Positions 1-40,386 of a stretch of 64,000 bases of DNA are shown here, piece by piece (within the stretch, counting starts at the first letter, position 1; every line of letters starts with the position of its first letter). Both the position numbers and the translations under genes were made by a program. Below the pieces are notes generated by a model. It worked only from the letters and a program-made list of their open reading frames with translations, searched no databases and was not told where the DNA came from. Source of the DNA: Paludisphaera mucosa (GTDB lineage Bacteria; Planctomycetota; Planctomycetia; Isosphaerales; Isosphaeraceae); NCBI RefSeq assembly GCF_029589435.1, contig NZ_JARRAG010000002.1, positions 2,294,001-2,358,000 on the forward strand, given 5' to 3'.

Positions 1-2
1 TC

Positions 3-1256: not shown

Positions 1257-1288
1257 CCGGGCCGATCCGACCGCCGAGGGGGAGAGCG

Positions 1289-3735
<2,447 letters not shown>

Positions 3736-3739
<4 letters not shown>

Positions 3740-22567: not shown

Positions 22568-23510
22568 GGGAATCTCCACCTCGCGAGATGCTGTCGACGT
22601 TCGGGCGATCCTACGGCTGCCGACGGCGCTCGGGACGACGATCGAAGGCCGGGCGCGACGGACCTCGACGCCGCCGACCGGGCGTGTCGAGAGGGCGGTT
22701 CACATCGGTCGAGATGTTGAACCCGATCGTGGAGCAGTGATGCGTGATTGCATTTAAATGCCTGGTAACGGGGCCCGCAAACAAATTCCTGAAAATCGTC
22801 TTTGCGAGAGGGAAGGCCTCGGCAAGCAGGCTTAATCCGTGTTGATTTGGATCATAATGTTTTATTTAAAACGATGCGCGGCGGCCTGTCTGGATTCCGG
22901 GAAAGGATAGCCGACGTAATTCGCCGGAACAAGTTGAATGTCCCTATCTTCCCAGGTTTCCCATGTTCACTCCACGTTCGGATTCGAGAGTCGACCTTGA
23001 TGGCAACGTGGGTCGTTCCGCGACACATCGACTCCAAGTTCAAAAAAACCTGAAAGCGGCAATTAAGTCCATTATTGAGGTCGGGTTGATCTCGGGTGAA
23101 GTAAGCCGTTCGCTCGCCAAGTCGTGGTTGTCTGCGTGCTGGCATGTTCCGAAAAAAGCAGGCTGCGGCCGGGAAGCCTTGTCACAATCGATCCCGAATC
23201 CCGCATTCTCCTGCGACGGGTGGAGACGGCGAAGTGGGCCGTGGAAGAGAACGGTCGAAGAGCCGTCCGGATCGGGTTTTTCGTTTGCATTCGCGGTGCT
23301 TGCGGCCTCAGAATGAACCCCCCTGGCCGATCGCCGCGGATGCGTCGCCCGGATGCTGATATCGAGGATCGTGGGCGGGCGGGCCATGTCGCGGCGCCTC
23401 GCGTGCCCCGCCATATCGCGGCGGGCTCGCCTCGGGGACGACGGCCGACGGCCTCGGTCTCGTCCCGCGGCCCGGATCCGAACGGTCCCATACTAAAGAG
23501 GACTTACGTC
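22568..23510. other. Gene-free AT-richer leader between beta-helix gene and T6SS operon
   Basis: About 940 bp with clearly lower GC than either side, most marked at 22740-23160. It separates divergent genes and must hold the promoters of both the beta-helix gene and tssB. Short ORFs exist (for example 22802-23053) but have neither a ribosome site nor the codon pattern of the neighbours. A + strand TTGATT (22842) with TTTAAA (22865) at 17 bp is a possible promoter. I found no clear sigma-54 -24/-12 element. No repeat or mobile-element end was recognised. Confidence 0.6.
22750..22780 (-). promoter_or_regulatory. 12-bp palindrome overlapping a candidate -10 of the beta-helix gene
   Basis: GCATTTAAATGC (22750-22761) is a perfect palindrome. 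Read on the - strand, TTGCGG (22780-22775) is followed after 17 bp by TTAAAT, which lies inside the palindrome. A repressor bound there would block the promoter. The -35 match is poor, so this is tentative. Confidence 0.3.
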
Positions 23511-24062
23511 ATGCCGCGCGATGAGAGTCTGCAGCACAAGCTCGACCGGGTCCGCCCGCCCCGGGTGCAGATCACCTATGACGTCGAGATCGGCGGCGCC
23601 CAGGTCAAGAAGGAGCTCCCCTTCGTCCTGGGGGTTCTCGCCGACCTCGCGGGGCATCCCGACCCGGACGCGCCGCCGCTCCCCGAGCTGAAGGACGAGA
23701 AGCGCAAGTTCGTGGAGATCAACCGGGACAGCTTCGACCGGGTGATGAAGGGGATCAAGCCCCGGCTCGCACTCCGCGTCGACAATGCGATCCAGGGCGA
23801 CGGCACCAAGCTCGGGGTCGAGCTCAAGTTCGACTCGATCGAGGACTTCGAGCCGGTCCGGGTGGTCGAGCAGGTGGAGCCCCTCCGCAAGCTGTTGGAG
23901 GCCCGCCGCAAGCTCGCCGAGCTGAAGTCGAAGGTCGTCACCAACGACCGCCTCGAATCCCTGCTCCAGCGGATCATCCACGACGCCGACCAGCTCTCGC
24001 GGCTCAGCCGCGAGACCGGCGGCGACGCCCCGGCCGCCAGCCAAGAGGAGACCCGCTCATGA
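23511..24062 (+). CDS. tssB: T6SS sheath small subunit TssB (VipA)
   Basis: 183 residues from the ATG at 23511, with AAAGAGGA at 23495-23502 as the ribosome site. It matches TssB over its full usual length: QHKLDRVRPPRVQITYDVE at the start, ELPFVLGVLADL, the FVEINRDSFDRVM segment, and FDSIEDFEPVRVVEQVEPL. TssB and TssC co-assemble into the contractile cytoplasmic sheath that drives the Hcp tube outward. Its TGA overlaps the tssC ATG, the usual tssBC coupling that keeps the two subunits in balance. It is the first gene of the operon, behind the long AT-richer leader. Confidence 0.96.
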   Translation: MPRDESLQHKLDRVRPPRVQITYDVEIGGAQVKKELPFVLGVLADLAGHPDPDAPPLPELKDEKRKFVEINRDSFDRVMKGIKPRLALRVDNAIQGDGTKLGVELKFDSIEDFEPVRVVEQVEPLRKLLEARRKLAELKSKVVTNDRLESLLQRIIHDADQLSRLSRETGGDAPAASQEETRS

Positions 24063-25570
24063 GCGCCGCCGAAGAACGCAAGGCCGCCCCCGCCGCGGCC
24101 CCCGAGGCCGCCGCCGTCGAGCCCAAGGGGGACGCCAACCTGCTCGACGAGATCCTCAAGGCCAACCGGGTCGGCGAGGGCGAGCCCGAGCTGCGCAAGT
24201 ACCACTCGGACCTCGTCGGCGAGTTCGTCGAGAGCATCATGGCCGGCGAGATGAAGGTCTCCGCCGACACCGAGCGGATGATCAACGACCGCATCGCCGA
24301 GATCGACGCCCTGCTGAGCGACCAGCTCAACGTGATCATGCACGACCCCGAGTTCCAGAAGCTCGAGGGCTCGTGGCGGGGGCTCCACTACCTGGTGAAG
24401 GAGTCCGAGACCAGCCCGATGCTCCAGATCCGGGTGCTCAACACCTCCAAGAAGGAGCTGCTGCGCGACCTGGAGCGGGCCAAGGAGTTCGACCAGAGCG
24501 CCCTGTTCAAGAAGATCTACTCGTCCGAATACGACGTCTACGGCGGGACCCCCTACGGGGCCCTGATCGGCGACTTCGAGTTCGGCAAGCACCCGCAGGA
24601 CCTGGCCCTGCTGAAGCGGGTCTCGCAGGTCGCGGCGGCCTCGCACGCCCCCTTCCTGTCGGCGGCGGCGCCGCAGATGTTCGGCTGGGAGAGCTACGAG
24701 GAGCTGCCCCACACCCGCGACCTCGCCGAGATCTTCCGGTCCCGCGAGTACGACAAGTGGAAGTCGTTCCGCGAGAGCGAGGACTCCCGCTACGTCGGCC
24801 TCTGCCTCCCCCGCACGCTGATCCGGGCCCCCTACGGCCAGGCCAACGTGCCGGTCGAGGAGTTCAACTACGAGGAGGACGTCGACGGCCGCTCGCACGA
24901 GAAGTACCTGTGGGCCAACGCCGCCTACGCGATGGGCGCCCGAATGACCGACGCCTACGCCAAATACGGCTGGTGCGCCTGGATCCGGGGCGTGGAGAAC
25001 GGCGGCCTCGTCCAGGGCCTGCCCCTCCACAGCTTCACCACCGACGACGGCGAGATCGCCAACAAGTGCCCGACCGAGATCCAGATCGGCGACCGCCGCG
25101 AGAAGGAGCTGGCCGACCTGGGGTTCATCGCCCTGGCGCACTGCAAGAACACGGACTACGCCGCGTTCTTCTCGGCCCAGTCCTGCCAGAAGCCGTTCGA
25201 GTACGACACCGACGCCGCCACGGCCAACGCCCGGCTGTCGACGCAGCTGCCGTACATCCTGATGACGTCCCGGTTCGCCCACTACCTCAAGTCCATCGCC
25301 CGCGACAAGATCGGCTCGTTCATGAGCCGCAAGGACTGCGAGCTGTGGCTGAACACGTGGATCACCAACTACGTCTCGCCGGACGAGACGGCGTCCGAGA
25401 ACACCAAGCGCGAGAAGCCCCTCTTCGACGCCAAGATCAACGTCGAGGACGACCCCCGCCGGCCCGGCTGCTATCGCGCCATCGCCTTGCTCCGGCCGCA
25501 CTACCAGCTCGACGAGCTGACCGTCTCGATGCGGCTGGTCTCCGAGCTGCCGGCCGGGGCCTCGAAGTGA
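24059..25570 (+). CDS. tssC: T6SS sheath large subunit TssC (VipB)
   Basis: 503 residues starting in the ATGA overlap with tssB. Family landmarks run through the protein: INDRIAEIDALLSDQLNVI, the EFQKLEGSWRGLHYLVKES segment, YGGTPYGALIGDFEF, KWKSFRESEDSRYVGL, and the C-terminal RPGCYRAIALLRPHYQLDEL. The length is normal. A low-complexity Ala/Pro/Glu tract of about 25 residues precedes the conserved core. It forms the sheath with TssB and is recycled by the ClpV encoded at 40412-43135. Two GC hairpins follow before hcp, which may tune how much transcript continues. Confidence 0.97.
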   Translation: MSAAEERKAAPAAAPEAAAVEPKGDANLLDEILKANRVGEGEPELRKYHSDLVGEFVESIMAGEMKVSADTERMINDRIAEIDALLSDQLNVIMHDPEFQKLEGSWRGLHYLVKESETSPMLQIRVLNTSKKELLRDLERAKEFDQSALFKKIYSSEYDVYGGTPYGALIGDFEFGKHPQDLALLKRVSQVAAASHAPFLSAAAPQMFGWESYEELPHTRDLAEIFRSREYDKWKSFRESEDSRYVGLCLPRTLIRAPYGQANVPVEEFNYEEDVDGRSHEKYLWANAAYAMGARMTDAYAKYGWCAWIRGVENGGLVQGLPLHSFTTDDGEIANKCPTEIQIGDRREKELADLGFIALAHCKNTDYAAFFSAQSCQKPFEYDTDAATANARLSTQLPYILMTSRFAHYLKSIARDKIGSFMSRKDCELWLNTWITNYVSPDETASENTKREKPLFDAKINVEDDPRRPGCYRAIALLRPHYQLDELTVSMRLVSELPAGASK

Positions 25571-25692: not shown

Positions 25693-26181
25693 ATGGCAGT
25701 GGTCGACTATTTCTTGAAGATCGACGGCGTCGACGGCGAATCGACCGACTCCAAGCACAAGGCTTCGATCGACGTCGAGTCCTGGAGCTGGGGCGAGACC
25801 AACAGCGGCGACGCCGCGACCCGCGGCGGCATGGGGGCCGGCAAGGTCGCCATGCAGGACTTCCACTTCGTCATGAGGGTGAACAAGGCCACCCCCAAGC
25901 TGTTCGAGAAGTGCGCCACCGGCGAGCACATCAAGAAGGCCGTGCTCACGTGCCGCAAGGCGGGCAAGGACCAGCAGGAGTACCTGAAGGTCACGCTGGA
26001 AGACCTGATCGTCTCCAGCTACCAGACCGGCGGCTCGGGCCACGGCGAGGTCGTCCCCGTCGACCAGGTCAGCCTGAACTTCTCGAAGATCGAGTTCGAG
26101 TACAAGGAACAGAAGTCCGACGGCTCGCTGGGCGGCTCCGTCAAGGCCGGCTACGACCTCAAGGCCAACAAGAAGGTCTGA
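25693..26181 (+). CDS. hcp: T6SS tube protein Hcp (TssD)
   Basis: 162 residues from the ATG at 25693, with GAGGAGAG just upstream. It starts with the typical VDYFLKIDGVDGES and has the SWSWGETN, DFHFVMRVNKATPKL, EYLKVTLEDLIVSSY and SLNFSKIEFEY segments of the Hcp fold. Hexamers stack into the tube that is expelled with VgrG and PAAR at its tip. The gene has its own 122-bp spacer with hairpins before it and a stem-loop after it. This suits a product needed in excess over the other operon members, though no clear promoter was identified in the spacer. Confidence 0.97.
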   Translation: MAVVDYFLKIDGVDGESTDSKHKASIDVESWSWGETNSGDAATRGGMGAGKVAMQDFHFVMRVNKATPKLFEKCATGEHIKKAVLTCRKAGKDQQEYLKVTLEDLIVSSYQTGGSGHGEVVPVDQVSLNFSKIEFEYKEQKSDGSLGGSVKAGYDLKANKKV

Positions 26182-26246: not shown

Positions 26247-26285
26247 CCGCGTTCGCGGCGATCGCCCGTCCCAGGAGTCCTCGCC

Positions 26286-26780
26286 ATGGCCAAGATCCCG
26301 GCCGCGCCGCGGTTCCCGCATTCGCTGTGGGACCGCCTCACCAATCCCGACCTGCTGGTCGGCGAGTCGTCCGACGCGACGGCGACGTCGCGGCTGGACC
26401 GGCTCCGGCGCGAGGTGCTCGCCCACGTCGAGTGGATCCTCAACGCGCGATGCTGCGTCGGCGCGGCGATCGAGGGGTCCGAGATCCTCCGCTCCTCGCT
26501 GGTCGGCTACGGGCTGCCCGACATCTCGGGCCTCCGCACCGGCGACCCCCGCGACCGCGGCCAGCTCGAACGGATGATCGAGGACGTCATCCGCCGGTTC
26601 GAGCCCCGGCTCAAGGACGTCCGCGTCGAGTTCAACGCCGCCGCCCGCGACGCGGCGAGCACGACCCTGAACTACCGGGTGTCGGCCGTGATCAAGGTCA
26701 AGCCGATCGCCCAGCCCATCCTGTTCGACACGGTCCTGGAGCTGGGCGGCCGGGCGTTCCAGGTCCGCGGCCCCGGTTGA
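26286..26780 (+). CDS. tssE: T6SS baseplate protein TssE (gp25-like)
   Basis: 164 residues from the ATG at 26286; the frame is open further upstream, but that stretch overlaps hcp and is not credible. It belongs to the gp25/TssE family: LWDRLTNPD near the start, the RREVLAHVEWILNAR helix, SLVGYGLPDISGL, and the late FEPRLKDVRVEF and NYRVSAVIKV strands. TssE is the wedge protein that starts sheath assembly on the baseplate with TssF, TssG and TssK. It sits in the usual place before tssF, with a 37-bp gap carrying GGAGGCGGAG for the next start. Confidence 0.92.
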   Translation: MAKIPAAPRFPHSLWDRLTNPDLLVGESSDATATSRLDRLRREVLAHVEWILNARCCVGAAIEGSEILRSSLVGYGLPDISGLRTGDPRDRGQLERMIEDVIRRFEPRLKDVRVEFNAAARDAASTTLNYRVSAVIKVKPIAQPILFDTVLELGGRAFQVRGPG

Positions 26781-26817: not shown

Positions 26818-28749
26818 TTGAAGGTCACCGACGAGCTGCTCGACTACTACAGCCGCGAGCTGGTCTACCTCCGCGACATGGGAGACCACTTCGCCCGGGC
26901 CCAGCCGGCGGTCGCCGGCCTGCTGGCGCTCTCGGCCGGTCGCTGCGAGGATCCCCACGTCGAGCGCCTCATGCAGGCGTTCGCCCTGCTCACGGCGCGG
27001 ATCCGCAAGAAGCTCGACGACCGGTTCCCGGAGATCACCAACGCCCTGCTGGAGGTCGCCTACCCCCACGCCCTGCGGCCCCTGCCCTCGGCGACGGTCG
27101 TCCAGTTCGAGGGCGGAGGCGACGCGGCCGGGGCGGCCGAAGGCCGGACCGTCCCCCGCGGCACGGCGCTCACGGCCGCCGTCGAGATCGACGGGGTCCG
27201 CTGCCGGTTCCGGACCTCGCATCCCGTCGCGCTCTGGCCGGTGACGGTCGAGGCCGCCGTCCTCTCGCCCGACCGCGTGGTGCAGGCGGGGAAGCCGGCC
27301 GGGGCCGTCGGCCTGCTCAGGCTCACGCTGCGATGCCAGGCGTCGGGCGGCTGGGCCGAGGTCAAAGGGCTCGAATCCCTGCGCTTCTACCTGGACGGCG
27401 GCGAGCCGGTGGCCTCGGTCCTCTACGAATGCCTGTTCGATCGCCTTTGCGAGGTCTGGATCACGGGCTCGGCCGAGGGCCGGGGGCCGTTCCGCAGGGT
27501 GCTGCCGAGGTCGGCGGTGAAGCCCGTCGGCTTCGGGGCCGACGAATCGCTCTACCCCGATCCCGGCCGATCCTTCCCGGGATATCGGCTGCTCCAGGAG
27601 TTCTTCGCCTTCCCGCAGAAGTTCCAGTTCTTCGACCTCTTCCTGAACGAGGCGTACGAGGGAACGCACCCGCCGCTCGGGCGGGAGAAGCTGGGCCCGA
27701 CGATCGAGGTCCACTTCTGGCTCGACGCCGCGCCCCGGTCCGACCTGGCGGTGCGGCCGACGAACTTCCGGCTGGGCTGCACGCCCGCCGTCAACCTCTT
27801 CCGCTGGGTCCCCGAGCCGACCCCCCTGACCCAACTCCAGACCGAATACCGGATCCTGCCGAGCGTCGAACACCCGACCGGGTTCGAGGTCTTCTCGGTC
27901 GACCGAGTCGTCAGCTCGGGCTCGTTCCTCGAAGGCTCCTACGATTTCCAGCCGTTCTACGCCATGCGGCACGGGACCCGCGAGGCCGACCGCGAGGCCT
28001 TCTGGCTCGCCAGCCGCCAGCCTTCGCCGATCGACGGCGGGACCGAGCTGTTCCTCTCGTTCGTCGACTCCCGTTTCGACCCCCTCCTGCCGGCCGTCGA
28101 GAAGATCACCGCCCACCTGACCTGCACGAACCGCAACTTGCCGGCGAGGCTCCCGTTCGGCGGCGACCAGGGTTTCCTCGAAGCCGAGACCGAGACCGCG
28201 GCGGGTCGGGCGCGACTGCTCATGCAGCCGACCGAACCCCTGCGTCCCCCAGTCGGCCGATCGGTCCAGTGGAGGCTGATCTCGCAGCTGGCGCTCAATC
28301 ACCTCTCGCTGACGCCGTCGGAGCCGGGCGGCGAGTCGGCCGGCGGGGCCGAGGCGCTCCGCGAGCTGCTGGCGCTCGCCACCCTGCCGAGCGGCGACGA
28401 CCGGATCGACGACGCCAACGCCAAGATGATCCGGGGCGTGCTGGAGGTCTCGCACGAGCGGGTCGCGGCGCGGGTCGCCTATCCCGACCCGGGCGACGAT
28501 CCGGGGGGACCGGGGGCGCGACGGCGGCGGCTGATGGGCAAGCCCCTGTCGATGGGCCTGGAGATCCGGCTCGTCCTCGACGACGACGCGTTCCCGGGCG
28601 CGCGGGCGTTCCTGCTGGCGGCGGTCCTCGACCGGTTCCTCGGCGGCTACGTCGGGATCAACGGCTTCACGCGGCTCGTGGCGACCACCAAGCAACGGCG
28701 GGGGACCTGGCGATGGCCGGCTCGGAGCGGAGATCGGATGCTGATCTGA
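26818..28749 (+). CDS. tssF: T6SS baseplate protein TssF (VasA/ImpG)
   Basis: 643 residues from a TTG at 26818 that lies directly after GGAGGCGGAG; no ATG fits as well. The start, LLDYYSRELVYLRDMGDHFA, and the segments DPHVERLMQAFALLTARI, FPEITNALLEVAYPH, FELFLNEAY-type FFDLFLNEAYEG, and GCTPAVNLF are diagnostic for TssF. The length is slightly above the usual 590-620. It forms the baseplate wedge with TssG and TssE. The 3' end overlaps tssG by 37 bp, so the pair is translationally coupled. Confidence 0.95.
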   Translation: MKVTDELLDYYSRELVYLRDMGDHFARAQPAVAGLLALSAGRCEDPHVERLMQAFALLTARIRKKLDDRFPEITNALLEVAYPHALRPLPSATVVQFEGGGDAAGAAEGRTVPRGTALTAAVEIDGVRCRFRTSHPVALWPVTVEAAVLSPDRVVQAGKPAGAVGLLRLTLRCQASGGWAEVKGLESLRFYLDGGEPVASVLYECLFDRLCEVWITGSAEGRGPFRRVLPRSAVKPVGFGADESLYPDPGRSFPGYRLLQEFFAFPQKFQFFDLFLNEAYEGTHPPLGREKLGPTIEVHFWLDAAPRSDLAVRPTNFRLGCTPAVNLFRWVPEPTPLTQLQTEYRILPSVEHPTGFEVFSVDRVVSSGSFLEGSYDFQPFYAMRHGTREADREAFWLASRQPSPIDGGTELFLSFVDSRFDPLLPAVEKITAHLTCTNRNLPARLPFGGDQGFLEAETETAAGRARLLMQPTEPLRPPVGRSVQWRLISQLALNHLSLTPSEPGGESAGGAEALRELLALATLPSGDDRIDDANAKMIRGVLEVSHERVAARVAYPDPGDDPGGPGARRRRLMGKPLSMGLEIRLVLDDDAFPGARAFLLAAVLDRFLGGYVGINGFTRLVATTKQRRGTWRWPARSGDRMLI

Positions 28750-29801
28750 TCGACCGGCTCCGCGAGGAGCCGTATCGATTCGACTTCTTCCAGGCCGTCC
28801 GCCTCCTGACGCGGATCGCCGACGACCGCGCGCCGGTCGGGCGCGACGCCCCCTTCGGCGACGAGGCCGTGCGGTTCGCCCAGTACGTCTCGCTCACGTT
28901 CCCGGCCAGCGCGGTCGACCGGATCGAGGGCCTCGCGCGGCCGTCGACAGCCTCGGCCGACGCCGGGCCCGCGCCGCCCCCGACCTTGACCACGACGTTC
29001 TTCGGCCTGCTCGGGCCGAGCGGGGTCTTGCCCACGATCTACACCGAGGAGCTGATCGGCCCCCAGGCCCGCCGCCGCGGCCCGGCGGTCGAGTTCCTCA
29101 ACTTGTTCCACCACCGCCTCGTCTCGCTCTTCTTCCGGGCCTGGGAGAAGTACGACCTGCCCTCGCAATGGGAGAACGGCCGGGTGGCGGATGACGGCGA
29201 CCGGGCCGCCGCCGGCGCGGACGGCGACGCCTTCGCCTCGTCGCTGTTCCACCTGCTGGGGCTCGGCCCCGAATCGCTGCGCGGCCGGATGGCGGTCGGC
29301 GACGACTCGCTCCCGTTCTACACCGGCCTCTTCGCGCAGCAGCATCGATCCGCCGTGATGCTCGAACGACTGCTGGTCGATTATTTCGGCCGGCCGTTCC
29401 AGGTCCTCTCGTTCGTCGGCCGCTGGCTGCGGCTCAGGCCCGAGGAGCGGACCCGGCTGGGCCGCCGCGGGTCGTTCGCTCGGCTGGGGGTCGACGCCGT
29501 CGCGGGGGGGAAGGTCTGGGACGTGCAGAGCAAGTTCCGCGTCCGCGTCGGGCCGCTCTCGCTGGAGGAGTTCCACGAGTTCCTCCCCGACGGCCCGGCC
29601 TCGAAGCGGCTCACGGATCTCGTCCGGTTCTACGATCGCGGCGAGATGGACTTCGACGTCCAGCTCGTGCTGAAGAAGGAGGACGTACCCCCCTGCCGCG
29701 TGGGGAGCGGCGCCGACGCCGCGAGGCTCGGCCGGTCCGCCTGGCTGAAGGTCCGGCAATTCGACCGCGACGCCGCCGACGCGGTCCTGCGGCCGGGTTG
29801 A
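28713..29801 (+). CDS. tssG: T6SS baseplate protein TssG (VasB/ImpH)
   Basis: 362 residues from the ATG at 28713, inside the 3' end of tssF. It opens with the family pattern LIDRLREEPYRFDFFQAVRL. It then has AVRFAQYVSLTFPAS, TTFFGLLGPSGVLPTIYTE, FLNLFHHRLVSLFFRAWEKY, and the late VWDVQSKFRVRVGPLSLEEF. The length is normal. TssG pairs with TssF in the wedge that docks on the membrane complex through TssK. After it comes a 128-bp spacer before tssK, the longest gap among the baseplate genes. Confidence 0.95.
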   Translation: MAGSERRSDADLIDRLREEPYRFDFFQAVRLLTRIADDRAPVGRDAPFGDEAVRFAQYVSLTFPASAVDRIEGLARPSTASADAGPAPPPTLTTTFFGLLGPSGVLPTIYTEELIGPQARRRGPAVEFLNLFHHRLVSLFFRAWEKYDLPSQWENGRVADDGDRAAAGADGDAFASSLFHLLGLGPESLRGRMAVGDDSLPFYTGLFAQQHRSAVMLERLLVDYFGRPFQVLSFVGRWLRLRPEERTRLGRRGSFARLGVDAVAGGKVWDVQSKFRVRVGPLSLEEFHEFLPDGPASKRLTDLVRFYDRGEMDFDVQLVLKKEDVPPCRVGSGADAARLGRSAWLKVRQFDRDAADAVLRPG

Positions 29802-29929
29802 CGGCGGAGACGCGCGATCCGACGCTTGGCCCCTCGTGGCTGTCGTCGTCGCATGCTAAATTGAATCCACATTGGTGCGAACGGGCGTCGGTCGCCGGGT
29901 CGAGTCGCGGGTTGAGCGGGGGGCGAGGC

Positions 29930-31330
29930 ATGCCGAAACGGCCCGTGCACTGGTTCGAGGGGATGTTCCTCAAGCCCCACCATTTCCAGGCGGCCGAGCG
30001 CTGGACGCGCGAGCGGATCCGCGAGTCCGAGGACTGGCTGCAGCCCCACGACTGGGGCGTCCGCTCGATCGAGTTCGACGCCGACGCGATCGCCAACCGC
30101 ACCTTGCGGGTGACCTCGTGCCAGGCGCGGTTCAAGGACGGCACGACCGTCTCGATCCCCGACGAGGCCGCGCTCGACCCGGTCGAGCTGGGCCCGGCCC
30201 TGGCCCGGCGCGAGCGGCTGATGGTCTACCTGGCCGTCCCCGCCTGGCAGCCCGGCCGGCCCAACGCCCAGCGCGAGGCGATCGAGGACGCGCCCCGGTT
30301 CCTCGTCGGCTCGCTGGAGTGCCCCGACGAGAACACCGGCGGCGACGAGGAGGAGATCGAGTTCCGCAACCTCCAGGCCCGGCTGCTGCTGGAGGATCAG
30401 CTCGCCCCCGGTTTCGAGACCCTCCCCATCGCCCGCATCGAGCGGGCCGGGAGCGACCAGGCCCCGCCCCGCGTCGACCGCTCGTACGTCCCGCCGGTCC
30501 TCGGCCTCGACGCCTGGCGGCCGCTGCACGACGACGTCCAGGCCCTCTTCCGGCAGGTGGAGGCCTGGATCGACCAGGAGGCCTCGCAGGTCGTCGGCCG
30601 CAAGATCGCGTTCGACAGCCAGGTCCTCGGCGACGCCGAGCGGATCCTGCGGCTCTCGGCCCTGAACACGGCTTACGCCGCCTGGCAGGGCTTCCTCTTC
30701 ACGCGCGGGCTGCACCCGCTGGCGATGTACGGCGAACTCTGCCGGCTGCTCGGCCAGCTCGCGATCTTCGGCGAGAGCCGCCGGCCCGTCAAGGTGCCGA
30801 GCTACGACCACGACGACATCGGCCCGTGCTACGCGGTCGTCCTCGCCGAGATCCGCCGCCTGCTCGGGTCGCTGGGCCGCGTCCCGTTCGAGCGGCGGTA
30901 TTTCCAGCTGGAAGGGCCCCGCTTCCAGGTCGCGCTCGAGCCCGACTGGACCCTGGAGACGACGAAGCTCTACATCGGGGTCGAGACCGCCGAACTGACC
31001 GACGCCGAGTGCGACGCCCTGATGAAGTCGACCGACTGGAAGCTGGGGAGCGGCGAGCAGGTCGAGACCATCTTCAAGAGCGGCGGCGCCGGCCTGGGCA
31101 TGAAGCCGCTGAACCGGATACCCCCCGCGCTGCCGGGGGGCGTCGTCTACTTCGAGATCGTCCGCAACGCCGAGCCCTGGAAGGACGTCGTGCGGACCCG
31201 GATGCTCGGGCTGCGATTCAAGCTCGAACGCGGCAAGTTCCTCAGCGCGCAGATGCTGGCCCTCACCAACCCGACGACCCAACGCACGGTGAATCTCCAG
31301 TTCGCCGTGTTCGTGGTCAAGTCGCAATGA
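29930..31330 (+). CDS. tssK: T6SS baseplate-membrane connector TssK
   Basis: 466 residues from the ATG at 29930; a TTG at 29798 would add 44 non-conserved residues. The hallmark PVHWFEGMFLKPHHFQAAER is at the very start. LNTAYAAWQGFLF, HPLAMYGELCRLLGQLAIF and YFEIVRNAEPWKDV follow as in other TssK proteins. It links the wedge to the cytoplasmic face of TssL/TssM. The upstream spacer contains TGCTAAATT (29854-29862), an extended -10-like sequence that could be an internal promoter, but no -35 partner is seen. Confidence 0.96.
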   Translation: MPKRPVHWFEGMFLKPHHFQAAERWTRERIRESEDWLQPHDWGVRSIEFDADAIANRTLRVTSCQARFKDGTTVSIPDEAALDPVELGPALARRERLMVYLAVPAWQPGRPNAQREAIEDAPRFLVGSLECPDENTGGDEEEIEFRNLQARLLLEDQLAPGFETLPIARIERAGSDQAPPRVDRSYVPPVLGLDAWRPLHDDVQALFRQVEAWIDQEASQVVGRKIAFDSQVLGDAERILRLSALNTAYAAWQGFLFTRGLHPLAMYGELCRLLGQLAIFGESRRPVKVPSYDHDDIGPCYAVVLAEIRRLLGSLGRVPFERRYFQLEGPRFQVALEPDWTLETTKLYIGVETAELTDAECDALMKSTDWKLGSGEQVETIFKSGGAGLGMKPLNRIPPALPGGVVYFEIVRNAEPWKDVVRTRMLGLRFKLERGKFLSAQMLALTNPTTQRTVNLQFAVFVVKSQ

Positions 31331-31343
31331 TCGAAGGACGGCG

Positions 31344-31988
31344 ATGACGGACGGCTTCGCAGACCTGGTGATGCCCCTCTTCCGCAAGGTCCTCGACCTC
31401 CGACGGCGCCTGGAGCGCGGCGAGGCCCGCACGCTCGACGACGCGATGCGCCAGGTCCAGTCGTGGATCGACGAGGCGGGCCGACGCGCCGTCACCGATC
31501 CCACGCTGGGCCGCGTCTTCGACGAGGCGCGATACGGCCTCGTCGCCTGGATCGACGAGGTGCTGACCGATTCGGAGTGGGGCCATTCGGTGGGCTGGGG
31601 CTTCGAGCAGCACGTGCTGGAGTGGCTCACCTTCCGCAGCCACGACCGCGCGTGGCGGTTCTACGAGCACGCCGAGGACCTGGACGCCCGCGGGGCCTTC
31701 GACCCTCTCGAAGCCTATCTCGTGTGCGTCACGCTCGGGTTCCGGGGCGAGTTGGCCCAGGACCCCGATCGCATGACCGACTGGGTCGAACGCATCTATG
31801 CGCGCGTCGGCGAGGGGGGCTCCGTGGAGTCCCGGCCGTTCCCGGAAGAGGAACCCGGCGCCGGCCTGCAGCCGCTCCGGGGGCCGTCGCTGCTGGTGAA
31901 GGTCAGCGCGTTGGCCGCGTTCACGCTCCTGTTCACGCTGGCCGCGTACCTTTTCGCGATCCATCACGATTATTATTCGGCCGGTTGA
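31344..31988 (+). CDS. tssL: T6SS membrane-complex protein TssL (DotU/IcmH family)
   Basis: 214 residues from the ATG at 31344, 13 bp after tssK. It has the DotU cytoplasmic helical domain: ARYGLVAWIDEVLTDSEWG, WGFEQHVLEWLTF, FYEHAEDL and AYLVCVTLGFRGE. One C-terminal transmembrane helix lies at about 184-206 (VKVSALAAFTLLFTLAAYLF), followed by only a few residues outside. There is no OmpA-like peptidoglycan-binding extension. TssL anchors TssK and the baseplate to the inner membrane with TssM. The short TssM-like gene follows after 40 bp. Confidence 0.94.
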   Translation: MTDGFADLVMPLFRKVLDLRRRLERGEARTLDDAMRQVQSWIDEAGRRAVTDPTLGRVFDEARYGLVAWIDEVLTDSEWGHSVGWGFEQHVLEWLTFRSHDRAWRFYEHAEDLDARGAFDPLEAYLVCVTLGFRGELAQDPDRMTDWVERIYARVGEGGSVESRPFPEEEPGAGLQPLRGPSLLVKVSALAAFTLLFTLAAYLFAIHHDYYSAG

Positions 31989-32028: not shown

Positions 32029-33489
32029 TTGCTCAAGTCGCTCCTCGAGACGCACGTGCTGATGGTGGCCCTGGGGATCCTCGCCGCGGTCGCCGCGGGC
32101 CTGGCCTTCCTCTGGGCCAAACATCCGTTCCGCTGGATCCTGGCGTTGCTGGCGATCGGCTGGGTCGGACTGGTCGCGACCTACGATTTCGACGGCCTCG
32201 ACCTGGATCCTCGGCTCCCGGCCGAGTTCGCCCGCTGGCTGCGGCCGTGGGCCCTGGTGCTGGGGCTGATCGTGCTGGGCCTGGCCCCCCACCTGGTCTC
32301 GACTCTCCTCGCCGGCCGCGGCCGGAAGGCGCCTGCGCAGGAGGGCGCGGCGGCCGGCGACCTGGAATCGGCCCTCGACGAGATCGACGCCCGCCTGAGC
32401 CAGGCGCGATACGACGCCGGCGGCCAGGAAGTCTTCCTGCTGCTGGCGCGCGAAGAGACTCTGGCCGCCGACATGGTGCGGGCCTCGGGGATGAACCTGT
32501 TCGCCGCCGCCCCCGCCGCGGCCGAGGCGCCGGTCCACGCCTACGCCTCGGCCGACGGCCTCTTCCTGAGCTGCTCCGGGGCCGCGTCCTGGGGCGGATC
32601 GGACGGCTCGGGGACGTCGCGTCTCGAACGCCTCTGCGGCTGGATCGCCGGGCTCAACCCGGAGAAGCCGCCGATCCGCGGCGTCGCCGTGCTAATCCCC
32701 CTGGATGAGGCGACTTCGCCCGAGGCCCTGAAGACCGTCGGCCCCCTGCGTAACGACCTGCAGGTGATCCAGGCCGGGCTGAAGGTCCGCTGCCCCGTGA
32801 TCGCCGTATTCTGCCTGCGGGACGGCCGCTCGGGGTTCGGCGAGTTCGCCGCCAGGATGCCCGCGGCGCTGCGCAACAACCGCTGCGGCTTCTCGACCCC
32901 GGCGTCGCGGCCCTTCGACCACGCCGTGGCCGAGAAGGGCTTCCGCTGGTTCGTCCGCTGGCTCCAGAGCTGGTCGCTGAGCCTGATGGCGGGGGACTAC
33001 CCGGCGAGGGAAGGCAACGCGAAGCTCGTCGAGCTGAACGCCGCCATGCGTCGTGACCTGCCGGCGCTCGGCACGTTCGTCGAGGCGGCGTTCTCGACCC
33101 ACGCGCGAGCCGAGCCCGTCCTGGTGCGCGGTTGCTACGTCGCCCTCTGCGGGGCCGAGCCCGCGGACCAGGCGTTCGTCGCGGGACTGCTGAAGGGTCC
33201 GAAGAGCAAGATGGCGGCCGACGCGAAGCTCGCGACCTGGGCCCGCGAGGCCGGGCGGGTCGACCGCTCATACCGGCGAGCCGCCCTGACGCTGGCCGCG
33301 GCGAGCGTCGCGCTGGCGACCCTCGTGTGGCTGCTGGCGATCGCCCCCCGGCTCCAGGCCGTCTCCCCAGGCGCGTCGAGCGGCCTGGGATGGCTCGCCT
33401 GGGCCGGCCTCGGGGTCTTGGCCGCGACCTGGATCGGCGTGCTGCTGTCTCCGAAACTCCGGCGGTCCAGGCCGCCGGCGACGCCCTGA
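32029..33489 (+). CDS. Truncated TssM/IcmF-like membrane protein without P-loop or periplasmic domain
   Basis: 486 residues from a TTG at 32029 with AGGCGGG upstream. Family TssM proteins are usually 1,100-1,300 residues. Three hydrophobic helices come first (about 9-30, 35-50, 74-94), then a cytoplasmic domain. At 135-154 VFLLLAREETLAADMVRASG occupies the place of the IcmF P-loop but lacks the GxxGxGKT residues. CPVIAVFCLRDGRSGFGEF (255-273) matches the IcmF TKxD-GFxEF region, with the TKxD replaced. RGCYVALCG (367-375) matches the IcmF RGxYF region. Helices follow at about 418-437 and 453-475, then the protein ends. The large periplasmic part that binds TssJ is missing. Position right after tssL supports the TssM assignment. 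The stop at 33489 is clean, with no sign of a frameshifted remainder. Confidence 0.8.
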   Translation: MLKSLLETHVLMVALGILAAVAAGLAFLWAKHPFRWILALLAIGWVGLVATYDFDGLDLDPRLPAEFARWLRPWALVLGLIVLGLAPHLVSTLLAGRGRKAPAQEGAAAGDLESALDEIDARLSQARYDAGGQEVFLLLAREETLAADMVRASGMNLFAAAPAAAEAPVHAYASADGLFLSCSGAASWGGSDGSGTSRLERLCGWIAGLNPEKPPIRGVAVLIPLDEATSPEALKTVGPLRNDLQVIQAGLKVRCPVIAVFCLRDGRSGFGEFAARMPAALRNNRCGFSTPASRPFDHAVAEKGFRWFVRWLQSWSLSLMAGDYPAREGNAKLVELNAAMRRDLPALGTFVEAAFSTHARAEPVLVRGCYVALCGAEPADQAFVAGLLKGPKSKMAADAKLATWAREAGRVDRSYRRAALTLAAASVALATLVWLLAIAPRLQAVSPGASSGLGWLAWAGLGVLAATWIGVLLSPKLRRSRPPATP

Positions 33490-35928: not shown

Positions 35929-35977
35929 GCGGCGGGGTTCCTCGACGCTCGGGACCGCGTTCCGGCCGGCTTCCACG

Positions 35978-36556
35978 TCAGACCTCGACGAAGGGGTCGC
36001 CGGCGTCGGACGCCGCAGAGATCGCCCCGGCCGCGCTCATGTACATGGCGTCGCCGATGATGACCGTCGGCATGCCCATCGCGATCGAGTTGGGCGGTCC
36101 CAGAGCTTCGATGATCGTGTCGCCGGCTCGACACGCGGGCAGGTTGTTGATCTGCACGGTCATGCTCCCCGTGACGACCATACCCGTGGAGTGGGGGACG
36201 GGCGAGGTGGGGGCGAGCGGGGTGGAGCACATGTGCTGGTCGGCGCCCATGCCCGCGGACGTCATCGCCGACGTCATGGCGGCCGTCGCCGCCTGCTCGG
36301 CCGCGACCTCGGCGGCCTTGGCGGCGGGCGCGCCGGGGGTCCCCATGGCGGCGGTGGAGGCCGCGATGGCGCTGACGACCGTCGCGTCGCTGGAGGCCTT
36401 CGCGGCCAGGATCCCCGGCACGGCGGCCAGCGGCATCCCCCGCCAGGCTGGCAGGTTGCCGATCAGCACGTTGGGGCTCCCCGGGCCCGGCGTGAGCACC
36501 GGCGGCAACGGGTGCGCGACCGGGTCGGTCATGCGTGCGGCGGGTCCCTGGGGCAT
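35978..36556 (-). CDS. PAAR-domain spike tip protein
   Basis: 192 residues from the ATG at 36556, preceded by a strong AAAGGAG. It opens with a PAAR-type PVAHPLPPVLTPGPGSPNVL and ends with the repeat-like TVQINNLPACRAGDTI and PTVIIGDAMYMS segments. PAAR proteins cap the VgrG trimer and sharpen the spike. The two PAAR-like parts are separated by an Ala/Met-rich stretch (about residues 45-100) that is unusual for a minimal PAAR of about 90 residues. No toxin domain follows the PAAR part. It lies 28 bp after vgrG. Confidence 0.88.
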   Translation of the reverse strand: MPQGPAARMTDPVAHPLPPVLTPGPGSPNVLIGNLPAWRGMPLAAVPGILAAKASSDATVVSAIAASTAAMGTPGAPAAKAAEVAAEQAATAAMTSAMTSAGMGADQHMCSTPLAPTSPVPHSTGMVVTGSMTVQINNLPACRAGDTIIEALGPPNSIAMGMPTVIIGDAMYMSAAGAISAASDAGDPFVEV

Positions 36557-36584: not shown

Positions 36585-38762
36585 TCACTGCGAGGACTTG
36601 TGGCCGGTCTGGGAGTCGTCGGCTTCCTTCGGCTTCTTCGGGGCGGGCTTCTTGAGCTCCTTGGGGTTGGCCGATTTGGCGGAATCGGCCGCGCCGCCGC
36701 AGTTGATCTTCACCATCATCCCCTGGATCGTCACGCCCGAAGCGTCGATTTTCACGAAGCCGCCGCCGGCCTTGATGGTCAGCTCAATACCGGCTTCGAT
36801 CACGACCTTCATCCCGGCCTTGAGGTGGATCTCCTGGGCCGCCTGCGTGATGTGGGACTTGCCGATCTTCTCCTGCCGGTCGCCGCCGACGATCAGCTGC
36901 TGGTCGCCGCCGACGTTCTCGGTCCGGGCGTCGCGGACCAGGATGTCCTGCTTCCCGCCGACGTAGAGCTCGGCGTCGCGGTCGACGTGCTCGACCCGGC
37001 GGCCCTTGACGTGGGCGTCGTGGTCGCGGCCGATCTCCTCGGTGAGATCGCCGCCGCCGCCGTACGGAGGGTTCTCGCCGCCGATGATGCTGTGGTGGCT
37101 GCCCTGGACGAGCTCGATGCGGTCTTTCCGGACCCGGGTCTCCATGTCGCGTTGGGCGTGGATGAAGATCTGCTCCTTCTCTTTCTCGTCATAGAACCGG
37201 AACTCGTTGTGGCCGCTCCCCCCCAGGCTCGAATTCGATTTCAGGCCGCTTATGAGCTTGCCCTTGCGGCCCTTGTCGTTCGAGTCCGCGAGCCTGTAAG
37301 ACGGCATCTGATCGGGGTTGTAGACCGAGCCGACGATGATCGGCTGGTCGACGTCGCCTTCGAGGTAGTCGACGACGACTTCCTGGCCGACCCGGGGCCA
37401 GAAATGGCCCCCCCATTGCTTGCCGGCCGTCGACTGGGCGACCCGGATCCAGCAGGAGCTGTTGGCGTCGCTCTTGCCCTCGCGATCCCAGTGGAACTGG
37501 ACCTTGACGCGGCCGTACTTGTCGACGAACACCTCCTCCCCTTTCGGCCCGACGACGACGGCGGTCTGGGTACCTGGAACGATCGGCCTGGGGGTCGTGC
37601 GACGGGGCCGGAACGGGAGGCCGGCGGGGATGCAGGTGAACGTGTTCTGGTAGACCGTCTCGCCGAACTCGCCCGATCGGTAGTCGCTGGTGGTCCGGGC
37701 CTCGTGGACGACGGAGGTCAGGATGTAGGGGCCGTCGGCGTTGAAGTGCTCCTTGAGAGTGAAGCCGTGGCCGGCGGTGAACTGGCGGAAATGGCCGGCT
37801 CCCGAGAGCTCGACGGCGGCGGCGGCCTCCGCCTGCATGCGGATCTCCGTCGTGCGCTTGTTGTCCTGGTAGATCTTCTGGACGTCGCTGGGCTGCTCGC
37901 CCCCGCCCTTCTCGACGCCGTCGTGACGCTGCGCGTAGCCTCCGGGCCAGTCGTAAAGCTCGAGCCGGTCCGGCTCGCCGAGCCTGAGCTTGTGGCCGAC
38001 CTTCCCCACCTGCACCGTCTCCTGGATCAGCTTCTCGGCCTCCAGGTGTTTGTGAGGCAACTCGAAGCAGTGGTCCCAGAGGACCACCTTCATCGACCGC
38101 AGCTCCTGGGCCTTTTCCAGCGAGGTGAGCCGGTCCTCCTCGACCCCCGTCCCCTCCACGGCCATGTATTCGACGGTCGAGCCGAAGGGGACCTGCACGT
38201 GCGAGGCGGGAGCGTTGGCGACGACCATCTTGTGGCCGGCTTCGTCGTGCGTGAAGTAGTAGTAGATCCCCTCCTCTTCCATCAGGCGCGAGGCGAAGGC
38301 GAAGTCGGTCTCCCGATACTGCACGCAGTAATCGCGGGGGTCGAAGACCCCCTGGATCTCGAATTTCACCGAGAGGCCCGCGAGCACCTTCTTGAGGATC
38401 TCGGGGATCGTCAGGTGCTGGAAGATCCGGCTCTGAGTGCGGCGGGTGAGGAACCAGGCCTCCGGGACGACCTCCATGCCGTAGCTGGTGAACGTCGCGT
38501 CCCGCCCGCCCTGCGAGAACCGGCTGCAGATCCCGTGGATGTGCCGCGTCTTGCCGCCGGGGGCCTTCATGCGGATCGCGACGTTCTTGCCCAGGAGCTG
38601 GTCGAACGCGACATTCTCGGCGTTCTCGGCGATCAGGTCGAGCTCGAAGTGGAAGAGCTGCGAGATCGCCTCGGAGCCGCGGAGGCCGACGAGGAACAGG
38701 CGATCCGGCCCGAGGGGCGTCGTGATCGAGAAGGCTCGCTGGGCTTGAGAATAGCCGGGCAT
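36585..38762 (-). CDS. vgrG: T6SS spike protein VgrG (TssI)
   Basis: 725 residues from the ATG at 38762 (GGAGGGC about 10 nt upstream); the frame is open to 38909, but that part is Arg-rich and not conserved. It has the gp27-like part (LFLVGLRGSEAISQLFHFEL, FASRLMEEEGIYYYF) and the gp5-like part (YGRVKVQFHWDREGK, SCWIRVAQSTAGKQWG, WPRVGQEVVVDYLEGD). The C-terminus has a short beta-helix (LTIKAGGGFVKIDASGVTI) and ends in a Lys-rich tail. There is no extra effector domain, so cargo must attach through the PAAR and DUF4123 proteins encoded next to it. Confidence 0.96.
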   Translation of the reverse strand: MPGYSQAQRAFSITTPLGPDRLFLVGLRGSEAISQLFHFELDLIAENAENVAFDQLLGKNVAIRMKAPGGKTRHIHGICSRFSQGGRDATFTSYGMEVVPEAWFLTRRTQSRIFQHLTIPEILKKVLAGLSVKFEIQGVFDPRDYCVQYRETDFAFASRLMEEEGIYYYFTHDEAGHKMVVANAPASHVQVPFGSTVEYMAVEGTGVEEDRLTSLEKAQELRSMKVVLWDHCFELPHKHLEAEKLIQETVQVGKVGHKLRLGEPDRLELYDWPGGYAQRHDGVEKGGGEQPSDVQKIYQDNKRTTEIRMQAEAAAAVELSGAGHFRQFTAGHGFTLKEHFNADGPYILTSVVHEARTTSDYRSGEFGETVYQNTFTCIPAGLPFRPRRTTPRPIVPGTQTAVVVGPKGEEVFVDKYGRVKVQFHWDREGKSDANSSCWIRVAQSTAGKQWGGHFWPRVGQEVVVDYLEGDVDQPIIVGSVYNPDQMPSYRLADSNDKGRKGKLISGLKSNSSLGGSGHNEFRFYDEKEKEQIFIHAQRDMETRVRKDRIELVQGSHHSIIGGENPPYGGGGDLTEEIGRDHDAHVKGRRVEHVDRDAELYVGGKQDILVRDARTENVGGDQQLIVGGDRQEKIGKSHITQAAQEIHLKAGMKVVIEAGIELTIKAGGGFVKIDASGVTIQGMMVKINCGGAADSAKSANPKELKKPAPKKPKEADDSQTGHKSSQ

Positions 38763-39009
38763 GATCCGAAGGCCCTCCGGAAAGCGCCGCGCCCGTGCGA
38801 GGTCCCGCGCCAGGCCCCGGGGATCCACGACTACGAACCGACCGAAACGATCTCGGCGACCAGGACGGCTCGAGGGCCGTCGCCCGAATGCGAAGGCCGG
38901 GACGAGCATTCTCGTCGATTCCGTAAGACATTACTATGATCGAGGAGGGTGTGACGGCGGACGGTCCGCCGTCGCGGCCGGCGCAAGAAGCGTGTCTCGG
39001 GGGCTGATC

Positions 39010-40386
39010 ATGGCGACGCCTGACGACGAACACCGCACGCTCGGGCCTCCCCCCGGCGCGCGGCGCAGGACGACCCGCGATCTGGACCTCGATCGCGAGC
39101 CGCGGCCCGGAGGCCCGCCGCCGACGCCCGCCGGCCCGCCCCCCGCCGCGAGCGCCCCGCCGCCGCGCGCTCCCGCCCTGCCGAGGCCGCCCGAACCGCC
39201 GCAGGAGAGTTACGAGACGATCCCGCCGGTGCCCGGCATCGGCCGGCGGAAGGTCGTCCCCGGGCCTCCCGTCGACCCGCCGCGACCGCTGCAACCCTGG
39301 GGGGCCGTCGACGAGCCCGCTCCCGCGCCGCCGCCGGCCGGCGAGGCCCTGCATCCGGGTTGGACCATGGGCGGCCCCGCGCCGGCGGTCGGCAACCCGT
39401 GGGCGGAACCCGAGATCCCGCCGCCGCCAGCCGTTCCTTCGTCTCCGCCCGCGGAACCCGAGATGAATTCGGCGGTCCCGACGCGAGTCGCCCCGCGGGA
39501 AGACGCGCACCCGCCGGACCTCGGGGCCTTCCCGGCCCCCCCGCCGCGCCCGCCCGCCGCCGCGCCCCGGATGCCGGCGCCGGCCCCGCCGCGGCCCTCT
39601 CCCTCGCCCGCGCCGTCTCGGCCGGTGGTCGAGGACCTGTCGAACCGGACGATGGCCATCGACCGAGTCTTCCCGGCGATGAAGAACCCGCTCCTCACGC
39701 TCCAGTTCTACAACACGAACCTGCGGCGGTGGTCGGATCTCGGGGCGGTGCGCGGCTCATTCCTGGACCTCGGCCGCGCGACGTTCCAGGACTGGAACCC
39801 CAACCCCGAGGACCTCGCCGAGAGCCACGTGCGGCTGATGATCGACGAGGGCCGGCTGTTCGTCGAGCCGCTGCCGAGCCTCAACGGCGTCTACCTCAAG
39901 ATGAAGCCCAACCGGCCCGCCGAGCTGGCGCCCGGCGCGCGGTTCCGGATCGGCCGGCACGTCATTGCTTTCCGCAAGGGCGACGCCGCCCCGTCCGACG
40001 TCGAACCTCTGCAATCCGCCGACGGCGAGGTCTTCCAGTCCCGCGTGCTCGTCCCTCTCGGCTTCCTCGACCTGATCGGCCCCGACGGCGAGGCGTACGT
40101 GAGCCACCCCCTCACCAAGACGGAGGACCCGGGCACGCGCATCGGCCGCGGCGGCGCGCGGTGCGACCTGGCGCTCACGGGCGACGACTGGGTCAGCGGC
40201 GAGCACGCCCGCGTCTACTTCACGGGCGAGGCGTGCTTCCTGGAGGACCTCAAGAGCACCAACGGCACGTTCATCCAGGTGGTCGGCATGCAGGAGATCG
40301 AGCGCGGGGTCGCGATCCGGCCGGACGCGGGCGACATCGTGGCGATCGGCGGCTACATGATCCGCGTCGTCGAGGAGCGGCCCTGA
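39010..40386 (+). CDS. Double FHA-domain protein with Pro-rich N-terminus (T6SS-associated)
   Basis: 458 residues from the ATG at 39010; the frame is open upstream, but that stretch lies in the divergent promoter region. Residues 1-205 are Pro/Ala-rich and disordered. A degenerate FHA-like domain lies at about 228-322. A complete FHA domain is at about 352-455, with the phosphothreonine-binding set GRGG (379-382), SGEH (397-400) and STNGT (416-420). It fits the Fha/TagH role in T6SS, where a threonine-phosphorylated partner triggers assembly. No kinase lies in the T6SS block; the kinase at 1289-3739 is the only one in the window. The TACTAT at 38932-38937 may be its -10. Confidence 0.85.
   Translation: MATPDDEHRTLGPPPGARRRTTRDLDLDREPRPGGPPPTPAGPPPAASAPPPRAPALPRPPEPPQESYETIPPVPGIGRRKVVPGPPVDPPRPLQPWGAVDEPAPAPPPAGEALHPGWTMGGPAPAVGNPWAEPEIPPPPAVPSSPPAEPEMNSAVPTRVAPREDAHPPDLGAFPAPPPRPPAAAPRMPAPAPPRPSPSPAPSRPVVEDLSNRTMAIDRVFPAMKNPLLTLQFYNTNLRRWSDLGAVRGSFLDLGRATFQDWNPNPEDLAESHVRLMIDEGRLFVEPLPSLNGVYLKMKPNRPAELAPGARFRIGRHVIAFRKGDAAPSDVEPLQSADGEVFQSRVLVPLGFLDLIGPDGEAYVSHPLTKTEDPGTRIGRGGARCDLALTGDDWVSGEHARVYFTGEACFLEDLKSTNGTFIQVVGMQEIERGVAIRPDAGDIVAIGGYMIRVVEERP

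Follow-up and report, generated by a model that had tools for sequence, protein, structure and literature searches.

Introduction

TssM is regarded as the pillar of the type VI secretion system (T6SS). The baseplate proteins TssK and TssG are described as contacting the cytoplasmic parts of TssM and TssL (PMC5924787), and the remainder of TssM is described as the part that spans the periplasm and contacts TssJ (PMC4256274). Membrane complexes of this kind have been rebuilt from other proteins in Bacteroidota and in Acinetobacter (PMC10781749, PMC10564176). Here we analyse a T6SS locus of the planctomycete Paludisphaera mucosa (class Planctomycetia, family Isosphaeraceae) within a stretch of 64,000 nucleotides (contig NZ_JARRAG010000002.1, positions 2,294,001 to 2,358,000), hereafter the window, whose tssM gene (32029..33489, + strand) is predicted to encode only the membrane and cytoplasmic half of TssM. 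We describe how widely this short form occurs and a family of giant bitopic proteins (hereafter giants) that accompanies it and may supply what TssM has lost.

Several described systems resemble this locus in part. With the canonical TssJ-TssL-TssM system (T6SSi) it shares a homologous TssL and N-terminal half of TssM, the tssK-L-M gene order and the rest of the core; it differs in having no P-loop, no TssM periplasmic domain and no TssJ match, with giant bitopic proteins instead. The T6SSiii of Bacteroidota (TssNQOPR), as presented in PMC10781749, also combines the usual tail and baseplate with a non-canonical membrane complex and several separate periplasmic proteins, and a vWA domain occurs in its TssR as in one kind of giant, a likeness by domain type; T6SSiii is described there as having neither TssL nor TssM, whereas TssL and half of TssM remain here. 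The Acinetobacter complex reported in PMC10564176 is likewise TssJ-less and has co-opted an enzyme-like protein without catalytic residues (TsmK there, a pseudo-caspase here), but its TssM keeps the periplasmic domain and reaches the outer membrane with it. Francisella T6SSii (PdpB/DotU/IglE) is reported to have a divergent TssM-like protein and a non-homologous TssJ equivalent (PMC5924787), yet PdpB is said to match the C-terminal part of IcmF (PMC2660368), the reverse of the half kept here. Citrobacter rodentium also makes a shortened protein, TssM1(1-807), but according to PMC4256274 only the C-terminal beta-domain is lacking there and the full-length protein is needed too. In Planctomycetes, a T6SS was noted in Rhodopirellula baltica in 2009 (PMC2660368) and such systems are mentioned in PMC5394234 and PMC6461901; our search of the open-licence literature found no description of the planctomycete short TssM or of the giants.

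Results

A half-length TssM ends the T6SS operon

The open reading frame at 32029..33489 (+ strand) begins with TTG, encodes 486 residues and shows a strong coding bias in G+C content at third codon positions. It is the last gene of an operon ordered tssB-C-hcp-E-F-G-K-L, then tssM, and starts shortly after the end of tssL at 31988. A first-pass annotation, made from the letters of the window, had described the product as a miniature TssM with neither P-loop nor periplasmic domain, and the profile and structure analyses bear this out. PF14331 (IcmF-related, N-terminal) matches residues 202-377 with 56.8 bits (cut-off 25) and has no other match in this genome, while the TssM equivalog TIGR03348 stays below its cut-off (22.5 versus 388.15 bits) and is matched only over positions 199-363 of 1168. 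In an hhalign comparison, a profile of 28 short forms (residues 74-435) is co-linear with a long TssM of 1162 residues (residues 40-447) at a probability of 98, and places LLAREETLA of the short TssM opposite GPPGSGKT of the long one. This degenerate P-loop region (EVFLLLAREETLAADMVRASGMNLF; 32428..32502, + strand), like the rest of the short TssM, has no Walker A motif G....GK[ST], a motif that is not universal in the cytoplasmic domain of TssM. The IcmF-like landmarks listed by the annotation (VRASG, CLRD..GFGEF and RGCYV) are all present.

By hydropathy, with no trained predictor, the helices lie at residues 10-28, 36-54, 76-94, 420-438 and 456-474, and the C-terminus comes 12 residues beyond the last one. 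The two C-terminal helices, encoded at 33286..33450 (+ strand), appear as helices 406-445 and 454-473 in an AlphaFold2 model built with 28 relatives (mean pLDDT 79, pTM 0.73). Residues ~131-401 of the model align to small GTPases (best Z 12.1, root-mean-square deviation (rmsd) 3.2, 167 residues) and the best Foldseek match is YsxC (E 6.1e-4); the core is thus modelled as a GTPase-like fold without P-loop. The class-wide alignment of short forms (A1), run as a profile against the PDB sequences, returned only chance-level rows (best E 0.038).

Neither the TssM periplasmic profiles PF06761 and PF06744, searched in six frames, nor the TssJ profile matches anywhere in this genome, in agreement with the annotation, which had expected no full-length tssM elsewhere and no TssJ. 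The next coding stretch, a methyltransferase, starts ~40 bases downstream of the short tssM, and hence no orphaned remainder of tssM lies there. The nearest named relative is Paludisphaera soli (L083, 75% identity), followed by metagenome-assembled genomes and Singulisphaera. Compared with its closest relative (P. soli, L069), the gene has a non-synonymous divergence (dN) of 0.17 and a synonymous divergence (dS) of 0.60 by NG86, which indicates constraint. Judged from its sequence, the short TssM is predicted to be a real inner-membrane subunit of the T6SS, equivalent to the half of TssM that comprises its membrane and cytoplasmic parts.

The short form is the rule throughout Planctomycetia

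Among 198 genomes of the class, PF14331 matches 86, the sheath profile 81, and both match 77. The PF14331 places number 98, and 97 of them lie within open frames of 291-962 residues, the remaining one being a frame of 1382 residues in genome G375. The copies were taken from 108 stretches that cover most of these places (the window, L033-L079 and L091-L150; the G375 stretches were left out), which gave 84 non-redundant short tssM copies; 83 are complete, and among the complete ones 82 are longer than 400 residues. The 82 have a median length of 531.5 residues; G....GK[ST] occurs in none of them (G375 being outside the set), and all end at most 53 residues after the last predicted helix (median 6). 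The helix layout by simple hydropathy is 3+2 in this genome and often in other Isosphaeraceae, and mostly 2+1, ending at the third helix, in the short forms of the class outside this family. PF06744 matches 1 of the 198 genomes (G375); PF06761 is above cut-off in that genome only and below it in G324. TssJ (PF12790) matches none of the 198, this genome included, a result compatible with a non-homologous lipoprotein. The long TssM of G375 stands on a 9.9-kb contig beside a DotU-OmpA protein, in a genome without a sheath match, and for these reasons we suspect that it is foreign DNA or a relic; G375 also has no TssJ match. The short TssM, which the annotation had proposed to look for in other Isosphaeraceae, is the rule in that family and across the whole class. 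Some frames are larger (672-956 residues, at L046, L052/L078 and L129); at L078 a linker rich in Pro, Ala and Ser within the cytoplasmic domain accounts for the difference, and at L129 the additional residues precede the first helix.

Other classes differ. In a phylum sample of 294 genomes, PF14331 occurs in 67, namely this genome, 8 of the same class (frames of 542-611 residues) and 58 of other classes, where frames are mostly longer than 1,000 residues. Shorter frames in those classes (380-880 residues) account for 10 PF14331 rows in 8 genomes (G097, G197, G230, G268, G271, G279, G282 and G288) and may be contig ends or short forms. The Walker A motif is present in 29 of 30 long-TssM loci, the exception (L013) being truncated at a contig end, and, in a set of 20 such loci, in 19 TssMs; in these 20, simple hydropathy leaves 674-1,099 residues beyond the third helix. 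TssJ was found in 28 of 42 of the 58 other-class genomes, as against 0 of 198 in the class, so the search method works. Because the other classes mostly keep a long TssM with Walker A, often together with TssJ, the loss marks the class and not the phylum, and the idea in the first-pass annotation that the short form suits the planctomycete envelope as such is not supported. In a sheath tree of 37 sequences, the short- and long-TssM loci are intermixed on long branches (5 changes, at least 3 of them forced). Since the tree splits the short-TssM loci, their history is not simple; repeated loss or exchange may lie behind it, and we draw no history from the tree.

Giant bitopic proteins accompany the short TssM

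We clustered the genes of 80 stretches, some overlapping, around short tssM genes. The tssM cluster is found in 79 stretches, tssL in 58, tssK in 54 and a family of giant proteins in 29; the clusters present in at least 8 of the 80 are T6SS parts, the giants and one more, cluster 14. Giants have ~1,300-1,780 residues, with an N-terminus rich in lysine and arginine, one helix and then ~1,250-1,650 residues. Their modules are the N-terminal helix, a pseudo-caspase, a long helical region and C-terminal beta-sandwiches; in a second kind there is a vWA domain. Of 27 giants, 12 have a vWA match in Pfam and 12 show the vWA metal-site motif; the catalytic His and Cys of caspases occur together in none of the 27, in aligned columns that we chose. 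By hydropathy they have one helix and no export-only signal, and the charge rule predicts a cytoplasmic N-terminus in 32 of 35, those at L136 and L160 and this genome's own copy being the three that do not fit. A giant gene lies at most 350 bp from tssM at 19 distinct places, and giants flank tssM on both sides, on the same strand, at nine (L079, L104, L106, L119, L122, L125, L130, L146 and L147).

Profile A4 covers the helix and pseudo-caspase part of giants and was built from 27 rows belonging to 19 genomes. Searched against the 198 genomes of the class, it matches 147 of them at E up to 1e-6, because related pseudo-caspases are common. Giants were defined by an A4 E-value below 4.2e-27 and an open frame of at least 1250 residues, the matches listed being complete to about E 4e-27. 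This yields 122 genes in 73 genomes: 73 of the 81 sheath-positive genomes and none of the 117 sheath-negative ones, which include 9 with PF14331 yet no sheath match. When the 19 source genomes of the profile are removed, giants are found in 54 of 62 sheath-positive versus 0 of 117 sheath-negative genomes. The Fisher values for this co-occurrence (1.4e-45 and 1.3e-37) overstate independence because the genomes are related, and counts by genus are a better guide: giants occur in 43 of 46 sheath-positive genera, and in 27 of the 30 without a member in the profile. As to linkage, 82 of the 122 genes are at most 40 kb from tssM or a sheath gene, 54 of them at most 10 kb. A4 has no match at E up to 10 in 20 long-TssM loci of other classes (stretches of 16-20 kb).

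The first-pass annotation had envisaged a separate gene with the missing periplasmic domain. The searches revealed no homologue of it: hhalign of a giant against the periplasmic parts of long TssM gives a probability of 0.4, thus no sequence relation, and we rejected the giants as homologues on this basis. Structure searches with the giant model have no TssM structure among the matches listed, which carries little weight since single domains dominate them. What stands is that an unrelated family tracks the T6SS and that one of its copies ends inside the window.

This copy occupies positions 1..1256 (+ strand) with its C-terminal part; the whole gene (1320 residues, ~-2706 to 1256) was read on the stretch L159 (7295-11254). 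It is the sole A4 match listed for this genome (G000:C2:2291441-2292172, E 1.1e-37) and lies ~30 kb from tssM. The gene order is tssA, a lipoprotein of 354 residues, the giant, and a kinase with a formylglycine-enzyme-like domain. The lipoprotein (L159:6074-7135, window ~-3927 to -2866), directly before the giant, has a lipobox and a conserved GIRYWRPKPYLLV start, and is a possible outer-membrane partner; 6 of the 11 Isosphaeraceae loci with a giant have it in this position and no other fetched stretch contains it, so that it is not a general replacement of TssJ. The Ser/Thr kinase (1019..3739, + strand, true start probably after 1256; PF00069 135.7 bits, PF03781 120.2 bits) has one helix and neighbours the giant in 7 of the 11 Isosphaeraceae giant loci; it resembles a PpkA-TagR fusion and may regulate the T6SS.

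The extracytoplasmic part of this giant was modelled with AlphaFold2 from 12 sequences, minus the last 60 residues (mean pLDDT 75.9, pTM 0.59, with loops of low confidence in the caspase-like part). The model has a caspase-like alpha/beta part at 1-240, helices at 283-877 and strands at 895-1184; in the periplasmic domain of TssM, too, a long helical part comes before a beta part. Model residues 4-237 align with caspase-3 (4jj8; Z 12.8, rmsd 3.6, 188 residues), and the N-terminal domain is accordingly predicted to be a caspase-like fold. The last part has its structural matches among fibronectin- and Ig-like folds, for example RbmA (Z 11.0).

The remainder of the T6SS locus

The core set is complete. 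Pfam or NCBIfam profiles identify, all on the + strand, the sheath genes tssB (23124..24062, PF05591 181.5 bits) and tssC (24059..25570, PF05943 459 bits, TIGR03355 706 bits), hcp (tssD; 25693..26181, PF05638 142.9 bits), tssE (26283..26780, with a start chosen by us, TIGR03357 91.8 bits), tssF (26818..28749, PF05947 620.6 bits), tssG (28746..29801, PF06996 339.6 bits, and TIGR03347), tssK (29798..31330, PF05936 259.9 bits, TIGR03353 265 bits) and tssL (DotU; 31344..31988, PF09850 92.4 bits), a short form without OmpA domain. TssA is encoded ~4-6 kb before the window start. Within 10 kb after the short tssM are the genes of a PAAR-like protein (35978..36556, - strand; NF033420 20.7 bits, under the cut-off of 124, although it clusters with PAAR-like neighbours), VgrG (tssI; 36585..38909, - strand, TIGR03361 531 bits), FHA proteins, and ClpV (tssH; 40412..43135, - strand, TIGR03345 1265.6 bits). 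One FHA-domain protein (38761..40386, + strand, PF00498 71.9 bits) has relatives in other loci and is a possible T6SS regulator. In another, at 35098-35976 (- strand), which adjoins the PAAR-like and VgrG genes, the FHA domain is fused to DUF4123, which usually occurs in VgrG effector adaptors.

Further observations concern the window and the loci of the class. A protein of 2945 residues at 13742-22579 (- strand) has a right-handed beta-helix region close to the C-terminal end and may be a surface protein. At L070 (5816-6160), L071, L072 and L073, within T6SS loci, a small protein beside tssC has an eCIS_core domain (PF13699, 41 bits in L070), of a type that is normally associated with extracellular injection systems. 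Several class genomes (G137, G194, G205, G296, G346 and others) have two sheath genes ~1.6-1.9 kb apart, the second scoring more weakly with the sheath profile.

Discussion

The interpretation that the first-pass annotation gave of this locus is partly supported, and we propose a mechanism in which the two tasks of TssM are divided. TssL and the P-loop-less half TssM would hold the baseplate at the inner membrane; the cytoplasmic parts of both proteins that TssK and TssG contact are kept here. The giants are predicted to have a positively charged tail in the cytoplasm, one helix and ~1,250-1,650 residues outside. They would supply the periplasmic column where TssM otherwise has its periplasmic domain, and would direct the tube to the outer membrane; there, in some Isosphaeraceae, the lipoprotein may perhaps take the place of TssJ. 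In this reading, the most economical one, baseplate docking would stay with TssL and half of TssM, and envelope crossing would pass to the giants. That separate giant bitopic proteins provide the column lost from TssM is the explanation we favour, by a modest measure of confidence. We advance more tentatively, at slightly under even chances, the wider proposal of a further T6SS membrane complex in Planctomycetia, in which half TssM and TssL hold the baseplate while giants form the column and meet the outer membrane, possibly at crateriform contact sites. The crateriform structures of planctomycetes are described as joining the outer and inner membranes (PMC5394234); as an exit site of the T6SS they are a speculation.

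A number of observations weigh against the giants as a column. First, what we observe is distribution and linkage, and it is from these that we infer their contact with TssM, the column, the platform and the outer-membrane roles; the giants have no sequence relation to the domain that they would replace. Second, the E-value and length cut was set after the table had been seen. Without the length filter, six sheath-negative genomes that also have no PF14331 pass (G389, G407, G444, G447, G467 and G469, with frames of 649-882 residues), as do 2 of the 9 PF14331-only genomes (G378 and G422). Third, 8 sheath-positive genomes miss the cut, one of which (G365) nonetheless has a giant 57 bp from tssM (L149), and 40 of the 122 giant genes are on other contigs or more than 400 kb from T6SS genes. 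Fourth, the sheath tree does not unite the short-TssM loci in one clade. Fifth, the giant of P. mucosa itself is among the three copies that the charge rule does not support, and its position beside a Ser/Thr kinase suits a role in signalling.

This last point leads to an alternative in which the giants act on the T6SS as sensors or regulators, for instance in an envelope-damage or phosphorylation pathway of which PpkA/TagQR is an example, the machine firing from an inner-membrane platform of TssL and short TssM without dedicated column, as is reported for the Amoebophilus system. The location of the P. mucosa giant between a lipoprotein gene and a fusion of kinase and formylglycine-enzyme-like domain, and the recurrence of the kinase in 7 of 11 Isosphaeraceae giant loci, fit such a role, and signalling proteins often contain caspase-like and vWA domains. 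However, among the giant genes that adjoin tssM a kinase match occurs at only 2 loci (L094 and L119), the constant neighbours of giants are tssM or tssA, all 27 aligned giants lack the caspase dyad, and the two different giants that flank tssM at 9 places exceed what a single sensor would need. We consider this explanation unlikely, if still a serious competitor.

It is also conceivable that the outer part consists of a further, unlinked and unrecognised protein or of a non-homologous lipoprotein, and that the giants are surface, adhesin or effector proteins travelling along with the T6SS. Francisella IglE is reported as a TssJ equivalent without sequence similarity (PMC5924787), some giants are unlinked to T6SS genes, and the Ig-like folds at their C-termini are similar to extracellular proteins, RbmA among them. 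Yet the clusters found in at least 8 of the 80 stretches around tssM show no further recurrent envelope gene, cluster 14 apart, and the giants, which by hydropathy have one helix and lack an export-only signal, are present in 73 of the 81 genomes with a sheath, all of which makes us give this possibility a small probability. Simple decay of tssM in a dead or disappearing T6SS, which the loss of the P-loop and of half of the protein relative to the textbook form might suggest, is very improbable and is refuted by the constraint on the gene (dN 0.17 versus dS 0.60) and by the retention of short tssM and sheath in 77 class genomes, with a gene set otherwise complete and no remnant downstream. The least credible option, a full-length TssM made from another gene or by transcriptional slippage such as is reported to rescue the short TssM1 of Citrobacter rodentium (PMC4256274), is rejected since PF06761 and PF06744 are absent from the genome in six frames and a methyltransferase gene follows the stop.

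The T6SSi detection quorum is given as 11 components (PMC4793230), and rules that demand TssJ, TssM and a high quorum can miss systems such as these. A class that has retained tail, baseplate and TssL together with no more than the inner half of TssM shows that the pillar is dispensable or replaceable, and that docking of the baseplate and crossing of the envelope, both tasks of TssM, have been separated in nature. If the giants are the replacement, then the T6SS would have recruited a part for the outer envelope on one further occasion at least, in addition to TssJLM and the Bacteroidota complex, and would have drawn it from pseudo-enzyme and adhesin-like modules.
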